Source: Minwuiaceae bacterium
GTDB lineage: Bacteria > Pseudomonadota > Alphaproteobacteria > Minwuiales > Minwuiaceae
DNA: 64,000 bases
Direction of reading: 5' to 3'
Assembly: GCA_028278525.1 (NCBI GenBank)
Contig: JANQEE010000066.1
Coordinates: 1 to 64,000 of the forward strand
This document shows, piece after piece, positions 5,955 to 19,742 of this stretch. A model generated the notes under the pieces. It had not been told where the DNA came from. It made no database searches and worked only from the letters and a program-made list of their open reading frames with translations. The position numbers and the translations under genes were made by a program. The first letter of the stretch is position 1. The number at the start of each line of letters is the position of its first letter.

Positions 5955-6332
5955 TCAGGCCCGGCAGGCCGAGCAGAACCCGTACAGGACGATGTCGTGA
6001 TCCGTCATGCGGAAGCCTTCGGGCAGCAGCCGCTCCAAACCTTCCACGCATCCCTCCAGATCGAACACGGAGTCGCAACGGTCGCAGCGGAAATGGTGAT
6101 GATGCCGATCGGCCGCGGCGCGCAGCTCGTAGCGCGGCGTTTCACCCGGCAACGTCACGGGCGCAATTTTCCGATCCGCAATCAAGCGCTTCAGTGTCCG
6201 ATATACCGTCGCGAGGTTGAGAGACGGAACCCGGCCCTGGGCACCGGCCAGGATCTCCCGCGGCGCCAGCGGCCGACCAGCCTCGGCGAACACGGTTTCG
6301 ATTGCCGTTCTTTGCAGCGTCTGGCGTTGCAC
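5955..6332 (-). CDS. Fur-family metal-responsive repressor
   Basis: About 125 residues when started at a GTG (6332) with AGAGGG seven bases upstream; the open frame runs further but into the operator region. Residues 1-75 form the winged helix (VPSLNLATVYRTLKRLI is the recognition part). The dimerisation half has DRHHHHFRCDRC, a later Cys and a C-terminal FCSACRA, so both CxxC-type structural zinc pairs and sensing histidines are present. It could be Fur, Zur or Mur; the nearby palindromes differ from the Zur-type boxes found at 27.5 and 30.3 kb, so I do not assign a metal. Confidence 0.9.
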   Translation of the reverse strand: MQRQTLQRTAIETVFAEAGRPLAPREILAGAQGRVPSLNLATVYRTLKRLIADRKIAPVTLPGETPRYELRAAADRHHHHFRCDRCDSVFDLEGCVEGLERLLPEGFRMTDHDIVLYGFCSACRA

Positions 6333-6400
6333 TGACAGTCCCTCTTCTGTTTCGGACGTGGCTTGCGACCTTCCGAGAGTCTGGCGGGTCGCGCGGCTTG

Positions 6401-6453
6401 TTGCAAACGCATCGGCGTTTGCATACTCTACTGCAAACGCATTTGCATTTGCA
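6401..6453. promoter_or_regulatory. Tandem palindromes between the Fur-family gene and the PEP-CTERM gene
   Basis: TGCAAACGC-ATCG-GCGTTTGCA (6402-6423) is a perfect 9-bp inverted repeat. Nine bases on, TGCAAA-CGCA-TTTGCA is followed by a further TTTGCA (6432-6452). Spacing between equivalent bases is about 30. TGCAAAT...ATTTGCA-like palindromes are known Fur/Mur operators in alphaproteobacteria. The sites lie upstream of both divergent genes and end just before the ribosome site of the plus-strand gene, so repression of that gene and autoregulation are likely. Confidence 0.75.
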
Positions 6454-6468
6454 ATCAGGAGAAGGTGT

Positions 6469-7446
6469 ATGCGCTCCCTTACAATCGGCACGCTTGCCGC
6501 CCTGCTGGTCGTCGGTTTCGCGTCGGCGGGCCAGGCGGGGGTGATCTATGCGTCGGGCCAATTGCTCGTCCCCGGCAACCCGCAGATTCCCCCCGGCAAT
6601 CCGGGGCACGACGACTCGCGCGAGAACTACCTCTATTCGATCGATACCGACACCGGTGTCGCGACGCCGGTCTCGCCGGTCACGACCGGCCTGCCCGCTG
6701 CGCTGGCCGGCACGCGCGACCAGCGCCTGCTTGGCTTCAAGAACGGCCAGTTGCAGGCGGTCGATCGGCCGAGCGCGACGCAAACGCCGATTGGCGCGGC
6801 GAACGGCCTGTCCTCGACGGGCTTCGAAGTCCTGCCGAACGGCCGCGGCCTGCTGACGCCGTTCAATGCCGGCTTCCAGACGCAGCAGCTCTACGAGATC
6901 GACATCGCGACCGGCGCCGCCAACCCGATAAGCACCAGCGCGACGGAAATCGGCGATGCAATCGATACAGCTGCCGGCAATCCGCTGGGCACGGCGTCGC
7001 CGTTCATCATCAGCCTCGGCGCCGTCGGCAACGTGGTGTACGGCATCGACCTCGACACCAACTCGCTCATCGCCCTCGACCCGGTCGCCGGCACCGCAGA
7101 GGTGGTCGGCGACGTCGGGGCGGTCGGCGAGGTGGGCGACGGCATCTACAGCGGCTTCGCGGCGCTTACCGGTGTGGACGAGGACGAGGATGGCGAATTC
7201 GACGCCCTGTTCGGCGCGGTGAACTTCCTGACAACCGACACCGAGACGCTGCGGCTGGGCGGGGTGGCCCGGTTCGATCTGGCCGACGGGAGTTGGTCGC
7301 TTGTCGGCGAGAACCCGGGCGTGATCTTTTTCGGTTTCGGATCGTCGCCGGCAGCCGTGCCCGAACCTTCCGGCCTCTTGCCCCTGGCGGGCGGGATGCT
7401 GACTGTCGCGCTATACCGCGTGTCGCGGACCCGACGAAAGCGGTAA
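6469..7446 (+). CDS. PEP-CTERM sorting-domain protein, probable beta-propeller
   Basis: A 325-residue secreted protein started at the ATG after AGGAGA (6457-6462). It has a Sec signal (about residues 1-23), then repeated DIDTDTG / DIATGA / DLDTN / DPVAGTAEV units typical of beta-propeller blades, an acidic Ca-binding-like DEDEDGEFD, and a C-terminal VPEPSGLLPLAGG, membrane segment and RRKR tail, the exosortase (PEP-CTERM) signal. It should be anchored or released at the cell surface. The upstream metal-regulator palindromes suggest metal-dependent expression, unusual for this class. Confidence 0.85.
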   Translation: MRSLTIGTLAALLVVGFASAGQAGVIYASGQLLVPGNPQIPPGNPGHDDSRENYLYSIDTDTGVATPVSPVTTGLPAALAGTRDQRLLGFKNGQLQAVDRPSATQTPIGAANGLSSTGFEVLPNGRGLLTPFNAGFQTQQLYEIDIATGAANPISTSATEIGDAIDTAAGNPLGTASPFIISLGAVGNVVYGIDLDTNSLIALDPVAGTAEVVGDVGAVGEVGDGIYSGFAALTGVDEDEDGEFDALFGAVNFLTTDTETLRLGGVARFDLADGSWSLVGENPGVIFFGFGSSPAAVPEPSGLLPLAGGMLTVALYRVSRTRRKR

Positions 7447-8295: not shown

Positions 8296-8355
8296 ATGAC
8301 GATTGTTTGGTTGTTACCGGGTTCTTCCATTGGCGTTTTGGAGAACCGGTCATGA
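8296..8355 (+). CDS. 19-residue leader peptide coupled to the first BCCT gene
   Basis: ATG at 8296 follows a near-perfect ribosome site (AGGGAGAGAAGT). The frame encodes MTIVWLLPGSSIGVLENRS and stops with TGA at 8353-8355, overlapping the ATG (8352) of the carrier gene as ATGA. Its ribosome site is stronger than the carrier's own GGAG (about 8 bases before 8352). This geometry predicts translational coupling. Alternatively, the carrier itself could start at a TTG near 8307 in another frame, in which case this would not be a separate gene. Confidence 0.5.
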   Translation: MTIVWLLPGSSIGVLENRS

Positions 8356-9905
8356 GCGAAGCGAAAGCGGTCGACTACGAGGTCGGCCAGGACAATATCG
8401 AGATCTTCGGTCTCGACATTCATAACCCGGTTTTTCTGATCTCCAGCGTGATCATCGTCGGCTTCGTCATCTTCGTGCTGATGTTCCAGGAAGGGGCCGC
8501 AGCATTCTTCGGCGAGCTCAGGCCCTGGCTTACCTCGACGTTCGACTGGGTGTTCATGCTGGCGGGCAATATCTTCGTGCTGTTCTGCCTGTTCCTCGTC
8601 GTCTCCCCGTTCGGCAAGATCCGGATCGGCGGCGCCGACGCCAAGCCCGACTATTCCTACGCCGGCTGGTTCGCGATGCTGTTCGCAGCCGGCATGGGCA
8701 TCGGCCTGATGTTCTTCGGCGTGCTGGAACCGGTCTTCCACTTCCAGAACCCGCCGCTCGGTATGACCGGCGCCGACCAGGAGGCCGCCCGGTCGCTCGG
8801 CATGGCGGCGACCATCTTCCACTGGGGCCTGCATCCCTGGGCGATCTACGCCGTAGTGGCGCTGGCGCTCGCCTTCTTCTGCTACAACCGCGGCCTGCCG
8901 CTGACCATCCGCTCGGCCTTCCATCCGATCTTCGGCGATGCCGTCTGGGGCTGGTTCGGCCATGTGATCGATACGCTGGCCGTGTTCGCAACGCTGTTCG
9001 GCCTGGCGACGTCGCTCGGCTTCGGCGCGGAGCAGGCCAGCGCGGGCCTGAACTACCTGTTCGACATTCCGGTCACGGACGTCACCAAGGTGGTGCTGAT
9101 CCTGGCGATTACGGCGGTCGCCTTGGTTTCGGTCATGGCCGGGCTGGACAAGGGCGTGAAGCGGTTGAGTGAGATCAACATGATCCTCGCCTTCCTGCTT
9201 TTGCTGTTCGTGATCGTGGTCGGCCCGACGCTGGACATCGTGAAAGGCTTCTTCCAGGGCGCCGTCGCCTACGCGGCGAACATCGTGCCGTTGAGCAACT
9301 GGGTGGGCCGCGAAGACACGGACTTCCTGCATGGCTGGACCACGTTCTACTGGGCCTGGTGGATCTCCTGGTCGCCGTTCGTCGGCATGTTCATCGCCCG
9401 CGTCTCGCGCGGCCGGACGGTGCGCGAGTTCATCGTCTGCGTGCTGATCATTCCGACCATCGTGTCGATCCTGTGGATGAACGCCTTCGGCGGCACCGCG
9501 ATCAGCCAATTCATCACCGACGGCTATACCGGTGTTACCGAGACGGTGACCAACTGGGCGCCGGAACTGTCGCTGTTCAAGATGCTGGAACCGTTGCCGA
9601 TGTCGGGCGTCTTGTCCTTTGTCGGCATCACCCTGGTAATCGTGTTCTTCGTCACCTCGTCCGACTCCGGTTCGCTGGTGATCGACACCATCACCGCCGG
9701 TGGCAAGGTCGACGCCCCGGTCGCGCAGCGGATTTTCTGGTGCACCTTCGAGGGCCTGGTCGCCATCGCGCTGTTGCTGGGCGGCGGATTGGGATCGCTG
9801 CAGGCGGCGGCAATCGCCACCGGCTTCCCGTTCGCCCTTGTGCTGGTGCTGATGTGTTTCAGTACGTTCAAAGGATTGCGCGAGGAAAAAGCCGCTAAAG
9901 CGTAA
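8352..9905 (+). CDS. BCCT family betaine/choline/carnitine transporter 1
   Basis: A 517-residue, 12-TM carrier. The family signatures are clear: the glycine-rich GMGIGLMFFGVLEP in the third helix region and WAWWISWSPFVGMFIARVSRGRT around the eighth, with the aromatic box tryptophans that bind trimethylammonium groups. The GMGIG form is that of sodium-coupled betaine carriers such as BetP. It is followed by a strong terminator, so some messages end before the second carrier. Role: uptake of a betaine-like solute for osmotic balance or catabolism. Confidence 0.95.
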   Translation: MSEAKAVDYEVGQDNIEIFGLDIHNPVFLISSVIIVGFVIFVLMFQEGAAAFFGELRPWLTSTFDWVFMLAGNIFVLFCLFLVVSPFGKIRIGGADAKPDYSYAGWFAMLFAAGMGIGLMFFGVLEPVFHFQNPPLGMTGADQEAARSLGMAATIFHWGLHPWAIYAVVALALAFFCYNRGLPLTIRSAFHPIFGDAVWGWFGHVIDTLAVFATLFGLATSLGFGAEQASAGLNYLFDIPVTDVTKVVLILAITAVALVSVMAGLDKGVKRLSEINMILAFLLLLFVIVVGPTLDIVKGFFQGAVAYAANIVPLSNWVGREDTDFLHGWTTFYWAWWISWSPFVGMFIARVSRGRTVREFIVCVLIIPTIVSILWMNAFGGTAISQFITDGYTGVTETVTNWAPELSLFKMLEPLPMSGVLSFVGITLVIVFFVTSSDSGSLVIDTITAGGKVDAPVAQRIFWCTFEGLVAIALLLGGGLGSLQAAAIATGFPFALVLVLMCFSTFKGLREEKAAKA

Positions 9906-9929
9906 CCGAAACTGACAATACCAATATTG

Positions 9930-9960
9930 AAGCCCCGCCAAGCGCGGGGCTTTTCTTTTT
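9930..9960 (+). terminator. Intrinsic terminator after BCCT 1
   Basis: GCCCCGC (9932-9938), loop CAAGC, GCGGGGC (9944-9950) followed by TTTTCTTTTT. The downstream gene must therefore have its own promoter within 9961-10108, an AT-richer 150-base stretch in which I could not fix a single -35/-10 pair. Confidence 0.9.
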
Positions 9961-10108
9961 GCGTCGGCAGGTAAGACGCGTCCAAAAAAACAGTCGTTTT
10001 GCGGCAATGTCCGGCGGTACGGAATCAACTCCGATTCTACTTACATTTGCATGCTTGCTCTAATTCGCCGTAGTGTTTTCGGAGAAACAAAAACACGGGG
10101 GAGGCAGG

Positions 10109-11656
10109 ATGCCAGCGAACGCCAAGACGCTGAGCGTCAACACCGTTTTTGTCGTTTCCATGATCTGCGTTGCCGGCATCGGTATCTGGGGGATGGTCGA
10201 TCCCGACTCGATGACCGGCACGATGCTCGGCTTCACCAATTACGCCTTGACCGGCGTAAGCTGGGCTTGGCTGTTCGTCTGTACCGGCTTCCTTGTGCTC
10301 AGCGGCTACATGGCGTTCGGGCCTTACGGTCATATCCGCCTGGGGAAGGACGACGAGGAGCCGGAATTCTCCACCGTGTCGTGGATCGCGATGCTGTTCG
10401 CCGGCGGCATGGGCTCCGGCCTGCTGCTGTGGGGACCGGCCGAGCCGATGTATCACTATGTCAGCCCGCCCGGCATGGAAGGAGAGACCGCGGCGGCGGC
10501 GCGCCAGGCCCTGGTGATCACCAACCTGCATTGGGGCCTGCATGCCTGGTCGATCTATGCGGTCTGCGCCCTGGTGATCGCTTACTTCACGTTTCGGCGC
10601 GGCCAGTCATCGATGATCTCCACGCCGATCAAGGCGCTGTTCTCCGGCGTGGCGGGTGAGCAGACCGGCAAGGTCGCCGACATCCTGGCGGTGCTGTCCG
10701 TTGTGTTCGGCCTGGCCGGCTCGCTGGCCATGGGAACCCTGGCGGTCCGGTCCGGCGCGTTCTTCGCCTGGGGCGTCGACGAGACGGTGACGACCTCGCT
10801 GATCATCCTGGCCTTGCTGTTCGTCTGCTACATGCTCTCCGCCACCACCGGCGTCGACAAGGGCATCAAGATCCTCTCCAACGTCAACATGGTGATCGCC
10901 ATCGCGATCATGCTGCTGGTGCTGTTCGCCGGCCCGACGCGTTTTCTGCTGGAGACATTCATCGATTCCATCGGCTCTTACTTCAGTTCGCTGATTACCG
11001 TCTCATTCCGGCTGTTCCCGTTCGAGGACCTGGGCGGCTGGAGCGCGGGCTGGACACTCACCTATCTGATCTGGTGGATCGCCTGGGGGCCGTTCATCGG
11101 CATTTTCGTGGCCCGAATTTCGCGCGGGCGCACCATCCGCGAGTTCTGCATGGGCGTGATCCTCGTGCCGACCCTGTTCTCCATGCTGTGGTTCGCGGTG
11201 TTCGGCGGCACCGGTTTCTATATCGAGATGTTCGGCGGCGGCGGCCTGAAAGAGCTGATCTTCGAGGACGCGACGAAAGCGCTGTTCGCGTTCCTCAATT
11301 ACTTCCCCGGCGGCGGTATTCTCAACATCCTGGCCGTCACCCTGATGTTCATCTTCCTGGTGACGTCGGCCGATTCCGGCACGTTCGTGCTGTCGATGAT
11401 GACCACCGACGGCAACCTCAATCCGCCGGTGATGCAGAAGATGGTCTGGGGCACGCTGATCGCCGCGCTGACCGTCGGCACGCTGTTTTCCGAATCCGTC
11501 GCGGTCGCCAAGGCCATGGCGATCACCGGCGCGATCCCCTTTACGGTGATCGTATTGCTGCAAATCGTCGGCTTCCTGAAGGAAATCCGTAAAGAACAGC
11601 CACCCCTGAAACCCATCGAAGCCCGCGGCGAAGCCGTCGGCCAACGCAACGTGTGA
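10109..11656 (+). CDS. BCCT family transporter 2
   Basis: A 515-residue, 12-TM carrier, started at the ATG after GGGGGAGG. It has GGMGSGLLLWGPAEP where carrier 1 has GMGIG, and IWWIAWGPFIGIFVARISRGRT in the eighth-helix region. The Ile-to-Ser change in the glycine stretch is of the kind seen in BCCT subgroups with different ion coupling or substrate, so the two carriers are probably not redundant. The hybrid binding-protein gene starts 17 bases downstream, and UspA after that, forming one operon. Confidence 0.95.
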   Translation: MPANAKTLSVNTVFVVSMICVAGIGIWGMVDPDSMTGTMLGFTNYALTGVSWAWLFVCTGFLVLSGYMAFGPYGHIRLGKDDEEPEFSTVSWIAMLFAGGMGSGLLLWGPAEPMYHYVSPPGMEGETAAAARQALVITNLHWGLHAWSIYAVCALVIAYFTFRRGQSSMISTPIKALFSGVAGEQTGKVADILAVLSVVFGLAGSLAMGTLAVRSGAFFAWGVDETVTTSLIILALLFVCYMLSATTGVDKGIKILSNVNMVIAIAIMLLVLFAGPTRFLLETFIDSIGSYFSSLITVSFRLFPFEDLGGWSAGWTLTYLIWWIAWGPFIGIFVARISRGRTIREFCMGVILVPTLFSMLWFAVFGGTGFYIEMFGGGGLKELIFEDATKALFAFLNYFPGGGILNILAVTLMFIFLVTSADSGTFVLSMMTTDGNLNPPVMQKMVWGTLIAALTVGTLFSESVAVAKAMAITGAIPFTVIVLLQIVGFLKEIRKEQPPLKPIEARGEAVGQRNV

Positions 11657-11673: not shown

Positions 11674-13521
11674 ATGACAGCGACCTTAAGAACCGTACTG
11701 ATCGCCCTTTGCGCCCTGGCCGTCGCGTCCTGCGGCGAGCAGGAAGGCAAGATCAAGATCGGCGCAAAGAACTTTGGCGAGAGCCGGATCCTGGCCGAGA
11801 TGATGGCGGCCCTGGCCGAAGAGCAGGGCCTGCCCGTCGAGGGCGTGATCGACTATCCGAACACGCAGGCGGTGCTGGAGGCGCTGAAGCGCGGCGACAT
11901 CGACGCCTATCCGGACTACAACGGCACCGGGCTGGTGATGCTCGGCCAAAATCCGATCGCCGACGGCGACGCCGCGACCGCACGGGTGAAGGAGATCTAC
12001 GAACCGCTCGGCCTTTCCTGGCGCGCGCGCTTCGGCTTCGCCAACAATTACGGCCTGGCGATGCGCCCGGAGCGGGCGGCCGAACTGGGCGTTTCGACCA
12101 TGTCCCAATTGGTCGCCAAGGCCGGCGGCCTGACCCTGGGTATCGAGGACGATTTCCAGGAGCGGCCGCTCGACGGCTTTCAGCCCATGGCGCGCCGCTA
12201 TGGACTCTCGTTTGGCAATGTCAGCGTGGTGCCGCTCGGCGACCGCGCCAACCTCTACGACGACCTGCTGGACGGCCGCGTCGACTTGATCGAGGTTTAC
12301 ACGACCGACGGACAGATCGCCGACTACGGTCTGGTCATACTGGACGACGACCTGCAGTTCTTCCCGGTCTATCAGGCGGCGCCGTTGGCCAACGCCGCAT
12401 CCCTTTCCGCCCATCAGGGCTTCGGCGCGGTGCTCGACGCCCTGGCCGGCAGGATCAATGCCGACGAGATGCGCGACCTGAACCGCAAGGTCGACAGCGA
12501 AGGGCGCTCGCCCCGCGCCGTCGCCCGCGATGCCCTGGCCCGCATGAACCTGATCGAGGCCGGCGCGGTGGCGACTGACGATCCTCTGCTGATCGCGGCC
12601 TCGCCGCAGGTGGCGGAGGGGGCTGCCGCCGCAGCGTCGCTCCGCGCCGCACGCAAGGCGTTTCAGGGGCGCGACGTCAAGATCGCGCCGAGCAACGCCG
12701 TCCTGGCCGACGTCGCCGCCGGCGACGCGCGCCTGGCGCTGGTCGGCGCGGATGCGTTCTTCGATTTCTCAGGGCCCGCCCCGGTCCGCTCCGAGGCTTT
12801 CGAGGCGGTCGCGCCGGTCGGTCAGAACCTGATCCACGTGATTGCCCGGCCCGACGGCCCGGCCCGCCTGACTGAGGCCAAGACGATCGCCAGCGGCCCC
12901 GTCGGTTCTTCGTCGGCGCGCATCGCGGCGCTGTTGAAGACGGGTCTGGAACTTTCGGCCAACCTGGTTACGGAAGCGGATGCCTCGGCCGCCGCATTGG
13001 CGGCCCAAGTCCGCGACGGTTCGGTCGACACGGCAATCGTATTCGCGCCGGAAGGCGATAACGCCCTGGTCGCGGCCTTCGCCGAGGGCGGCTTGCGACT
13101 GCTGCCGATCCTCGGCTGGAACGAAGGCGCCAACCTGGTGCGCTATCCGTTCCTGCGCGAGGCGCGGCTGACGGGCGGCGCATATAATGGCCAGTCCGGC
13201 GCGGTTGACACCCTGGGCGCGCAGCTGGTGCTGGCCGGCCCCGCGCCGGAGACGGGCGACGCGGTCGGCGATCAGGGGCCGAGCGCGGTCGCCGTCGGGC
13301 TGTCGCCGATCTCGGGTTCGGCGGTCGAAGCACTGAACGACGCCATCGCCGGCGCGCCGCTGATCGACCCGGCCCTGAAACAGGCCGCGGCCCTGGCGCC
13401 CGTGCTGCCGGAGCCGCCGGCGGCGATCAATCCCGACGCGGATGTGTCGATCTTCAACGTCTTCGTCGTCGTCCTGTTCATTTGGATTTTGTGGCTCTAC
13501 GCCAGGCCGGAATATCGGTGA
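11674..13521 (+). CDS. Hybrid substrate-binding lipoprotein: OpuAC/ProX-like plus TAXI-like plus C-terminal TM
   Basis: 615 residues with a lipobox ending at Cys20 (LAVASC). Residues about 25-290 resemble the ProX/OsmF/OpuAC glycine-betaine-binding fold (IKIGAKNFGESRILAEMMA, then DIDAYPDYNGTGL). A second module, about 300-570, resembles TAXI-type TRAP receptors (SGPVGSSSARIAALLKTGLE, VRDGSVDTAIVFAPEG, GLRLLPILGW). The last 25 residues form a membrane helix (FVVVLFIWILWLY) with a basic tail. No ABC permease, ATPase or TRAP genes are nearby. It may feed or gate the BCCT carriers, or act as a tethered osmolyte sensor; both ideas are inference. Confidence 0.8.
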   Translation: MTATLRTVLIALCALAVASCGEQEGKIKIGAKNFGESRILAEMMAALAEEQGLPVEGVIDYPNTQAVLEALKRGDIDAYPDYNGTGLVMLGQNPIADGDAATARVKEIYEPLGLSWRARFGFANNYGLAMRPERAAELGVSTMSQLVAKAGGLTLGIEDDFQERPLDGFQPMARRYGLSFGNVSVVPLGDRANLYDDLLDGRVDLIEVYTTDGQIADYGLVILDDDLQFFPVYQAAPLANAASLSAHQGFGAVLDALAGRINADEMRDLNRKVDSEGRSPRAVARDALARMNLIEAGAVATDDPLLIAASPQVAEGAAAAASLRAARKAFQGRDVKIAPSNAVLADVAAGDARLALVGADAFFDFSGPAPVRSEAFEAVAPVGQNLIHVIARPDGPARLTEAKTIASGPVGSSSARIAALLKTGLELSANLVTEADASAAALAAQVRDGSVDTAIVFAPEGDNALVAAFAEGGLRLLPILGWNEGANLVRYPFLREARLTGGAYNGQSGAVDTLGAQLVLAGPAPETGDAVGDQGPSAVAVGLSPISGSAVEALNDAIAGAPLIDPALKQAAALAPVLPEPPAAINPDADVSIFNVFVVVLFIWILWLYARPEYR

Positions 13522-13535
13522 AGGGAGATACGCTT

Positions 13536-13988
13536 ATGACCAAGAAGATACTCGTTCCCATCGATCTTTCGGACATGCCGACCATGACGCCGGTGCTGGA
13601 GGCCGCGATCGAACAGGCCAAGTCGAGCGGCGCCGCGCTGACGGTGATGACCGTCGTGCCCGACATCGTCGCCGGGCTGGACTGGCGCTATGCGATCCGC
13701 GGCGAGACCGGCGGCTCGCAGGAGTTCGACATGAAGCAGATCGTCGGCGAGGCGCTCGACCGGCTGAACCAGGTCGTCGCCGAGCACGTGCCGAAAGGCA
13801 CCAAGGTGGAGACCATCGCCCGGCACGGGTCGGTCTACGAACAGGTGCTGAAGGTGGCCGAGGAACTGACGGTCGACCAAATCGTGCTCGGCGCCCATCG
13901 CCCCGGCCTCGCGGATTACCTGCTGGGCCCCAATACGGCCCGCATCGTGCGCCACGCCACCTGCTCGGTGAACGTCGTCCGCAGATAG
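13536..13988 (+). CDS. Universal stress protein (UspA family)
   Basis: 150 residues, started at the ATG after GGGAG rather than at an upstream in-frame ATG that would lie inside the previous gene. The UspA fold is seen in the N-terminal KKILVPIDLSD, and the C-terminal VLGAHRPGLADYLLGPNTARIVRHATCSVNVV gives the ATP-binding G-2x-G-9x-G(S/T)-like loop, here with N at the S/T position. UspA proteins often accompany solute carriers (for example TRAP and CLC systems) and modulate them. Last gene of the solute locus; its TAG stop is the insertion point of a MITE-like repeat. Confidence 0.92.
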   Translation: MTKKILVPIDLSDMPTMTPVLEAAIEQAKSSGAALTVMTVVPDIVAGLDWRYAIRGETGGSQEFDMKQIVGEALDRLNQVVAEHVPKGTKVETIARHGSVYEQVLKVAEELTVDQIVLGAHRPGLADYLLGPNTARIVRHATCSVNVVRR

Positions 13989-18905: not shown

Positions 18906-19742
18906 TCAGCCTAGGGTCGGGAATGCCTTACGGGTCCTGAGCAAGGCAAGACCGGCCAGCCCGAACGCCAGCAGCGCCAAGGCCCGCGGTTCCGGCACGT
19001 CGGCCGCGGCCGGCTCGCCGTATAGCAGGTCGTCGACGACAACCACGTCCGTGCCGCCGCCGTCGGCGGCGCCGAGCAACGCGTTGCCGAGCGTGATGCG
19101 GGCGCTGCCGACCCGCTCCGACGAGAACACGGCGCCCAGGAAGGAGAGGCCCTGCGGATCGGGGTCCACGAATTCCGTGAGCAAGAGGTCGCCGAACGGA
19201 TCGAACCATTCGATCTTGGTGGTATCCTCCAGGTCCACGTCGGTGAAGATGGCGGCGAACCCGTTGACCGTGCCGGGCGTGTCGGTGGCCGGCACGAAAA
19301 AATCGACCTCGAACACGTTGCTGCCGAGCGGCGAAAACAGGCGCGGCGCGCTAAAGGTGTCAAACTGGTTCGGGTTGTCCGGGTTAAAGGTATCGAACTC
19401 GTTGTCGATGCCATCGTTGCTGGCCCGGAACTCATCGCTTGGTGTGCTGAACACCGCGCCGCGGGTCGGCGGGAAGGCCGGGTTGTTGAAGAAGTCCGGC
19501 GGCATGTCGAACGGCACGATGCCGGCGTCCCAGTTGATCTGGCGGCGGCCGCCGTCGATCGGGCCCGGCGCGTTGCCGTTGTTCGGCTCCCCCAACAAGG
19601 CCTGAAAATCCGCGACGGCGGTTCCGACATCGCCGCCCACGGCGCGTACGACCGTCGGTGCGGCGCCGGCCACCGCCGCGCCCATCGTCAGGACCGCCGC
19701 GCCCGCGAAAAGGCCCAGAAAGGTATTTCGTGCGACTCTCAT
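18906..19742 (-). CDS. PEP-CTERM sorting-domain protein
   Basis: 278 residues: Sec signal (about residues 1-28), a secreted beta-rich domain with VADFQALLG near its start and a VFEVDFFVPATDTPGTVNGFAA stretch, and a C-terminal VPEPRALALLAFGLAGLALLRTRK, the exosortase signal. The ribosome site GGGGAG precedes TTTGAT and the ATG. Leader and promoter, including a 27-base palindromic element, are duplicated in front of the frameshifted relative upstream. Confidence 0.85.
   Translation of the reverse strand: MRVARNTFLGLFAGAAVLTMGAAVAGAAPTVVRAVGGDVGTAVADFQALLGEPNNGNAPGPIDGGRRQINWDAGIVPFDMPPDFFNNPAFPPTRGAVFSTPSDEFRASNDGIDNEFDTFNPDNPNQFDTFSAPRLFSPLGSNVFEVDFFVPATDTPGTVNGFAAIFTDVDLEDTTKIEWFDPFGDLLLTEFVDPDPQGLSFLGAVFSSERVGSARITLGNALLGAADGGGTDVVVVDDLLYGEPAAADVPEPRALALLAFGLAGLALLRTRKAFPTLG

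Follow-up and report, generated by a model that had tools for sequence, protein, structure and literature searches.

A two-domain ProX–TAXI binding protein encoded beside a BCCT carrier: a candidate two-component transporter

Gene order and layout of the binding protein

The window analysed here, a stretch of 64,000 nucleotides from a Minwuiaceae bacterium, contains a forward-strand operon in which the gene of a BCCT carrier is followed by those of a binding protein and a universal stress protein. The features of this region, with the evidence for each, are as follows:

9929-9953, forward strand: terminator-like hairpin between the operon and the upstream BCCT gene (10-pair stem, then a T-rich tail)
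10073-11656, forward strand: the partner, BCCT transporter BCCT_B, with ATG 10109 as its probable true start (Pfam BCCT E 4.2e-160, linkage, reciprocal occurrence)
11674-13521, forward strand: binding protein gene, 615 aa (Pfam/NCBIfam matches, predicted models, structure comparison, homologues)
11674-11733, forward strand: lipoprotein signal peptide, lipobox VASC, lipidated cysteine C20 (lipobox in 24/24 loci)
11743-12564, forward strand: ProX/OpuBC-type domain, residues 24-297 (Pfam OpuAC, 1sw2 alignment, Z-scores, conservation)
12574-13401, forward strand: domain of TAXI fold, residues 301-576, lacking the glutamate contacts of VcGluP (1us4 profile match, Z-scores, contact mapping)
13438-13503, forward strand: C-terminal membrane helix, residues 589-610, motif W604..W607 L608..R611 (predicted helix, hydrophobicity, conservation)
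13536-13988, forward strand: gene of a universal stress protein that closes the operon, separated by 14 bases from that of the binding protein (Pfam Usp E 2.8e-24)

The frame at 11674-13521 is a genuine open reading frame, and its start codon is backed by homologues. A preliminary description had attributed an unusual layout to its product; both modules, the lipobox and the helix found support, but the protein does not stand alone, as it sits in a conserved operon with a BCCT carrier. AlphaFold2 models built from homologues reached a mean pLDDT of 83 over the full length and of 80 over the second half, and in the full-length model a ProX-type domain (residues 24-297, Z up to 35.7) and a TAXI domain (residues 301-576, Z 22.0) are carried on a single chain. 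The cysteine of the proposed lipobox, C20, was invariant in 22 of the 22 full-length members. At the opposite end, the predicted helix of residues 589-610 has a mean Kyte-Doolittle hydrophobicity of 2.47 over 19 residues with basic residues at its end, which is consistent with the membrane helix put forward earlier, and it carries a conserved W-x-x-W-L-x-x-R motif. Both ends of the binding protein, the lipidated N-terminus and the C-terminal helix, are predicted to be anchored in the inner membrane.

Another BCCT gene of the window lies upstream of the operon (8307-9905), and the closest solved structure to its product is the trimethylamine transporter 8zw8 (E 1.5e-146). This gene was considered as the partner of the binding protein and ruled out, since it stands beside the fusion in no other locus and a terminator-like hairpin separates the two. 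The region holds seven terminator-like sites against a shuffle mean of 5.1, which is not above expectation, and the hairpin at 9929-9953 is to be read as a consensus match only. Elsewhere in the window, the translation of a reverse-strand frame at 5955-6491 starts with a repetitive stretch rich in A, N and F (ANANAFAVEYANADAFA, at about 6370-6480), which resembles a set of short repeats close to the beginning of a Fur-like gene, and a predicted secreted protein at 18906-19742 carries a weak PEP-CTERM tail (20.6 bits against a cut-off of 20.7).

Ligand contacts in the two halves

The assignment of the N-terminal half to the ProX type was confirmed by profile and structure comparisons alike. Residues 26-289 matched Pfam OpuAC with an E-value of 4.4e-47 (161 bits against a cut-off of 21), the best solved relative by family profile was A. 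fulgidus ProX (1sw2, E 5.5e-58), and the predicted structure of this half displayed the two-lobed ProX fold, with Z-scores of up to 35.7 to solved members. The residues that we take to be the betaine contacts of AfProX (K13, Y63, T66, Y111, R149, Y190 and Y214) correspond in the 1sw2 profile alignment to K32, Y82, T85, Y126, R164, Y209 and Y233 of the window protein, where all seven, comprising the aromatic cage and the carboxylate contacts, are kept. Across 22 members, K32, T85, R164 and Y233 were invariant, Y82 and Y126 differed once or twice, and the position of Y209 was occupied by Y or F in 19. Judged from these residues, the ProX half probably binds betaine, and the retained lysine and arginine point to a carboxylated solute, for example glycine betaine, rather than to choline.

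As the Foldseek lists for the full model were dominated by matches to the ProX half, the TAXI half was also folded and searched separately. Its AlphaFold2 model superimposed on six TAXI structures with Z-scores of 18.7-22.1, while the next chain from another family reached 13.9, and the TAXI-like character suggested for this half by the preliminary description was thereby upheld. The possibility of an OpuAC repeat was ruled out, both the structure and the profile matches being to TAXI proteins, and so was a LysR-type effector domain, such chains scoring at most 13.5 and well below the TAXI structures. Sequence profiles gave a weaker but consistent picture: the match of residues 333-521 to TRAP_TAXI (TIGR02122; E 6.6e-6, 25-26.6 bits) falls under the curated cut-off of 84.35, and a Pfam NMT1_3 match in the C-terminal half (E 5.6e-4) is likewise sub-cut-off. 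The TRAP_TAXI model was, however, matched by 14 of 15 homologues, with a best E-value of 2.2e-17, and a profile of the C-terminal half made from 15 homologues recovered the TAXI structure 1us4 with an E-value of 2.2e-10 and VcGluP (8s4j) with 0.043.

The ligand site of this domain is another matter. Six VcGluP residues have been tested by mutation for their part in glutamate binding (PMC11574862), and none of the six is retained: Y45 and S75 fall in deletions, Q93 is replaced by G358 (G, A, P or S across the family), and E125, Y200 and M201 correspond to N385, V456 and F457, although positions other than that of Q93 are less sure because the identity to VcGluP is just 16-20%. The fold and the G411-S412 loop are retained, and R327, E377, W482 and Q517 are invariant. 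Overall, the TAXI half is less conserved than the ProX half, with a mean pairwise identity of 0.41 against 0.54 and with 13 invariant positions out of 222 against 36 out of 269. The earlier picture of two working binding modules is not supported, given the loss of the six residues. With the betaine contacts kept and the glutamate contacts absent, the ProX half is the likely binding module, whereas the TAXI half may be structural and would either dock or bind something else. Our guess is that it serves for docking or as a spacer or, alternatively, that it has a different ligand; in either case, a TAXI domain has apparently been turned to another use in this protein.

Linkage to one branch of BCCT carriers

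A single-protein query against genome contigs found no relatives, and a search of plasmid records returned three full-length ones, from Paracoccus aminovorans (48% identity) and two Martelella strains (37%). Scanning about 85,000 species genomes with an alignment of three relatives yielded sixteen further fusion loci (a contig end truncates one, and another is frameshifted) in Kiloniellaceae, Pelagibius, Denitrobaculum, Roseovarius, Defluviimonas, Martelella and others; whole-genome searches added five more, and no relatives of the binding protein were found in viral contigs. With the two Martelella plasmid strains taken as one and a genome listed twice counted once, this amounts to 24 distinct loci including the window, mostly alphaproteobacterial and two of them incomplete in the record. 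The lipobox was present in all 24 and the C-terminal helix in every complete locus, and a layout kept across so many distinct loci is not a product of chance. The fusion is nevertheless rare, occurring in 2 of 385 genomes of the class and 7 of 296 genomes of one family, and it is well separated in the genome searches, in which fusions scored 237-488 bits and ordinary TAXI proteins 42-45.

Several of the records deserve comment in their own right. The deposited binding protein gene of Marinicella sp. W31 (L028:8007-9835) is frameshifted between its two domains. A frameshift near 8560 interrupts the linked BCCT gene in the deposited sequence of the Paracoccus aminovorans plasmid (L011:7398-8974), whereas both other genes, for the binding protein and for the stress protein, are intact; this reflects either a sequencing error or a decaying gene. 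The name of the record 'Oceanobacillus sp. HTM 045' (L019) is probably wrong, since the genome search places it with Roseovarius in one family, and the label Halioglobus japonicus (L027) may be doubtful, its gene resembling the Martelella ones. A Thermoleophilia metagenome-assembled genome (L082:8001-9944) carries two ProX-type stretches in direct tandem, which makes it a further candidate for a double binding protein.

All 24 distinct loci have a BCCT gene immediately upstream of the fusion and on its strand. This BCCT is always the orthologue of BCCT_B, the second of the two in the window (57-91% identity), and never of the first. The gap between the genes is at most 44 bases and in several loci they overlap by 4 bases, which suggests translational coupling. 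No BCCT was present in any of 64 loci holding an OpuAC protein only, and an ABC ATPase-like frame was found in 62 of those 64 compared with 3 of 23 fusion loci, in none of which it adjoined the fusion gene. The association also holds in reverse: the genomes with BCCT_B are exactly those with the fusion, both in the class (2 of 385) and in one family (7 of 296; Fisher 2.7e-14, kinship ignored), and the pairwise distances of the fusion and the linked BCCT correlate with r 0.95, shared descent likewise being ignored. A TRAP membrane protein was linked to the fusion in none of the 24 loci, the BCCT taking its place. TRAP_fused proteins are encoded in most fusion genomes, among them that of the window, but three (G400, G401 and G708) contain none above the curated cut-off, so that a TAXI-type TRAP membrane partner is not required. 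Downstream, an orthologue of the stress protein occupies the same place in most Kiloniellaceae and Rhodobacter-type loci and is absent in the Martelella group; it may regulate uptake.

BCCT_B is homologous to BetP and CaiT. In a maximum-likelihood tree of the linked BCCTs, the other BCCTs of the same genomes and BetP, the linked proteins formed one clade with 100/100 support and a long stem, and nearest to the BCCT_B side were BetP and one Paracoccus BCCT. An alignment of 25 linked rows (23 distinct genomes) with 21 other BCCTs was inspected at the Na2, Na1' and betaine contacts of BetP as listed in PMC6400524. The aromatic box (W189, W194, Y197, W373, W374 and W377), the GMGxG stretch and the Na2 residues M150, T467 and S468 (BetP numbering) were kept in 25 of 25 linked rows. 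The Na1' threonines are absent in all of them, T246 being replaced by V and T250 by L, although the T250 position is variable in other BCCTs as well. The clearest differences lie at two positions that are presumably located near the outer gate: F369 is T in all 25 linked BCCTs and W371 is L in 24 and M in one, whereas all 21 others have F and W. No open-access paper on BetP F369 or W371 was found. An entrance altered in every lineage with the binding protein is what a hand-over of solute would predict, though it is not proof of one.

A candidate binding-protein-dependent BCCT

BCCT carriers, to which BetP and CaiT belong, have the LeuT fold and are known to work alone; they are the textbook single-component osmolyte pumps, and BetP is among the best-studied secondary transporters. 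Constant adjacency to one branch of this family suggests that a single-component pump has here gained a binding-protein helper. The explanation that we prefer, with a probability of roughly 0.6, is that the binding protein and BCCT_B form a two-component ion-driven transporter, the former being its extracytoplasmic binding subunit and the latter its membrane part. The domain layout, the contacts, the strict linkage, the co-divergence and the single BCCT clade with changed positions are computed observations, and from them we infer the ligand, the physical contact, the hand-over, the docking role of the TAXI domain and the sodium coupling. In such a system, the N-terminal lipid and the C-terminal helix would hold the binding protein at the outer face of the inner membrane, where the aromatic cage of the ProX-type domain would trap glycine betaine, proline betaine or a similar carboxylated quaternary ammonium compound. 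The TAXI domain and the membrane helix would dock the protein onto the BCCT, the solute would enter the aromatic box of the carrier, and the sodium gradient would drive import via the retained Na2 site. The full version of this scheme, in which a LeuT-fold BCCT depends on a tethered binding protein, with betaine delivered by the ProX domain and docking performed by a ligand-free TAXI domain, is put forward more tentatively, at slightly worse than even odds. Against the preferred explanation stands the point that BCCT_B might work alone, since known BCCTs do so and its aromatic box is intact.

The main rival is an accessory role as sensor or regulator, in which periplasmic betaine would be sensed and the activity, assembly or stability of BCCT_B altered through the membrane helix, with no hand-over taking place. 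Such a role would suit the conserved helix motif, which exceeds the need of a plain anchor, as well as the stress protein gene in many of the operons and the complete binding site that BCCT_B retains for itself. We nevertheless regard a regulatory role as unlikely, as the binding protein has the build of a delivery protein and no signalling domain, and as the changed positions near the outer entrance of the carrier are not predicted by regulation alone. Less probable again is a two-ligand receptor in which the TAXI domain binds a second solute. The retained fold and G411-S412 loop would allow for this, and the four invariant residues R327, E377, W482 and Q517 could form a new site, but the missing or changed VcGluP residues and the lower conservation relative to the ProX domain speak against it.

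It is very improbable that the binding protein works with an ABC importer or a TAXI-type TRAP transporter whose genes lie elsewhere, the BCCT being a mere neighbour. Public records do name the protein a glycine betaine ABC transporter substrate-binding protein, and the TRAP_fused proteins of most fusion genomes could be taken to favour a TRAP partner. The public annotation is, however, unlikely to be correct because the ABC genes are missing from its vicinity, the three fusion genomes without TRAP_fused above the cut-off argue against a TRAP partner, and across distant lineages the fusion and one BCCT clade are linked without exception, whichever of the two is taken as the starting point.

Accepting the two-component transporter with BCCT_B as the best explanation, binding-protein dependence would extend beyond elevator-type secondary transporters. 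To our knowledge, TRAP and TTT were until 2025 the only secondary transporters known with binding proteins, and we know of no LeuT-fold case before the one proposed here. A helper gained along with changed positions in the carrier would also offer a direct way of asking what a binding protein adds. A literature search covering BCCTs with binding proteins, TAXI, LeuT and the universal stress protein found no description of the two-domain binding protein and its BCCT; being confined to open-access work, this is weak evidence of novelty.

Comparison with known systems shows that each part of the arrangement has its counterpart elsewhere. The ProX, OpuBC and OpuCC proteins of ABC importers share the fold, the lipobox and the seven AfProX betaine contacts, but the window protein differs from them in its TAXI domain, its membrane helix, its linkage to a BCCT and the lack of nearby ABC genes. 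With the TAXI binding proteins of TRAP transporters (VcGluP and TtGluBP, 1us4) it has in common the fold (Z about 22) and a weak, consistent sequence match, while the six tested VcGluP ligand residues and an adjoining TRAP membrane protein are both wanting. A membrane-anchored TAXI transporter has reportedly been described by Roden et al. in 2023 (cited in PMC12344293); the likeness lies in the membrane anchor, and neither a ProX-type domain nor a BCCT partner is known to us from that system. BetP and other BCCTs share with BCCT_B the aromatic box and the Na2 site; BetP, in contrast, needs no binding protein, and in BCCT_B the Na1' threonines are missing and F369 and W371 are replaced by T and L. 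Some TRAP operons, for example that of VcGluP, carry a UspA gene (PMC11574862), which recalls the downstream stress protein found here.

Among known systems, TAXI-GltS of Bordetella pertussis (BP0403/BP0402; PMC12344293) comes closest; in it, a multi-domain TAXI lipoprotein is likewise encoded directly behind a normally stand-alone secondary transporter, translationally coupled to it and with no TRAP membrane gene (PMC12344293). That system combines a glutamate-binding TAXI domain and a PilO-like N-terminal domain with a GltS carrier modelled as an elevator (PMC12344293), whereas the window protein has a ProX-type N-terminal domain, no glutamate contacts and a C-terminal helix, and is paired with a BCCT. 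Jaques et al. proposed that binding-protein dependence may need an elevator mechanism and that further classes would allow a test (PMC12344293). Differing in fold and mechanism, a BCCT tied to a binding protein would provide one. In 24 of 24 loci, and reciprocally in the 385 and 296 genomes, the gene of a binding protein is coupled to that of a secondary transporter. The membrane component is not of the elevator type, a feature that has been proposed for such systems and does not belong to their definition. As BCCTs have the LeuT fold, a binding-protein-dependent BCCT would be a counter-example to the elevator proposal.
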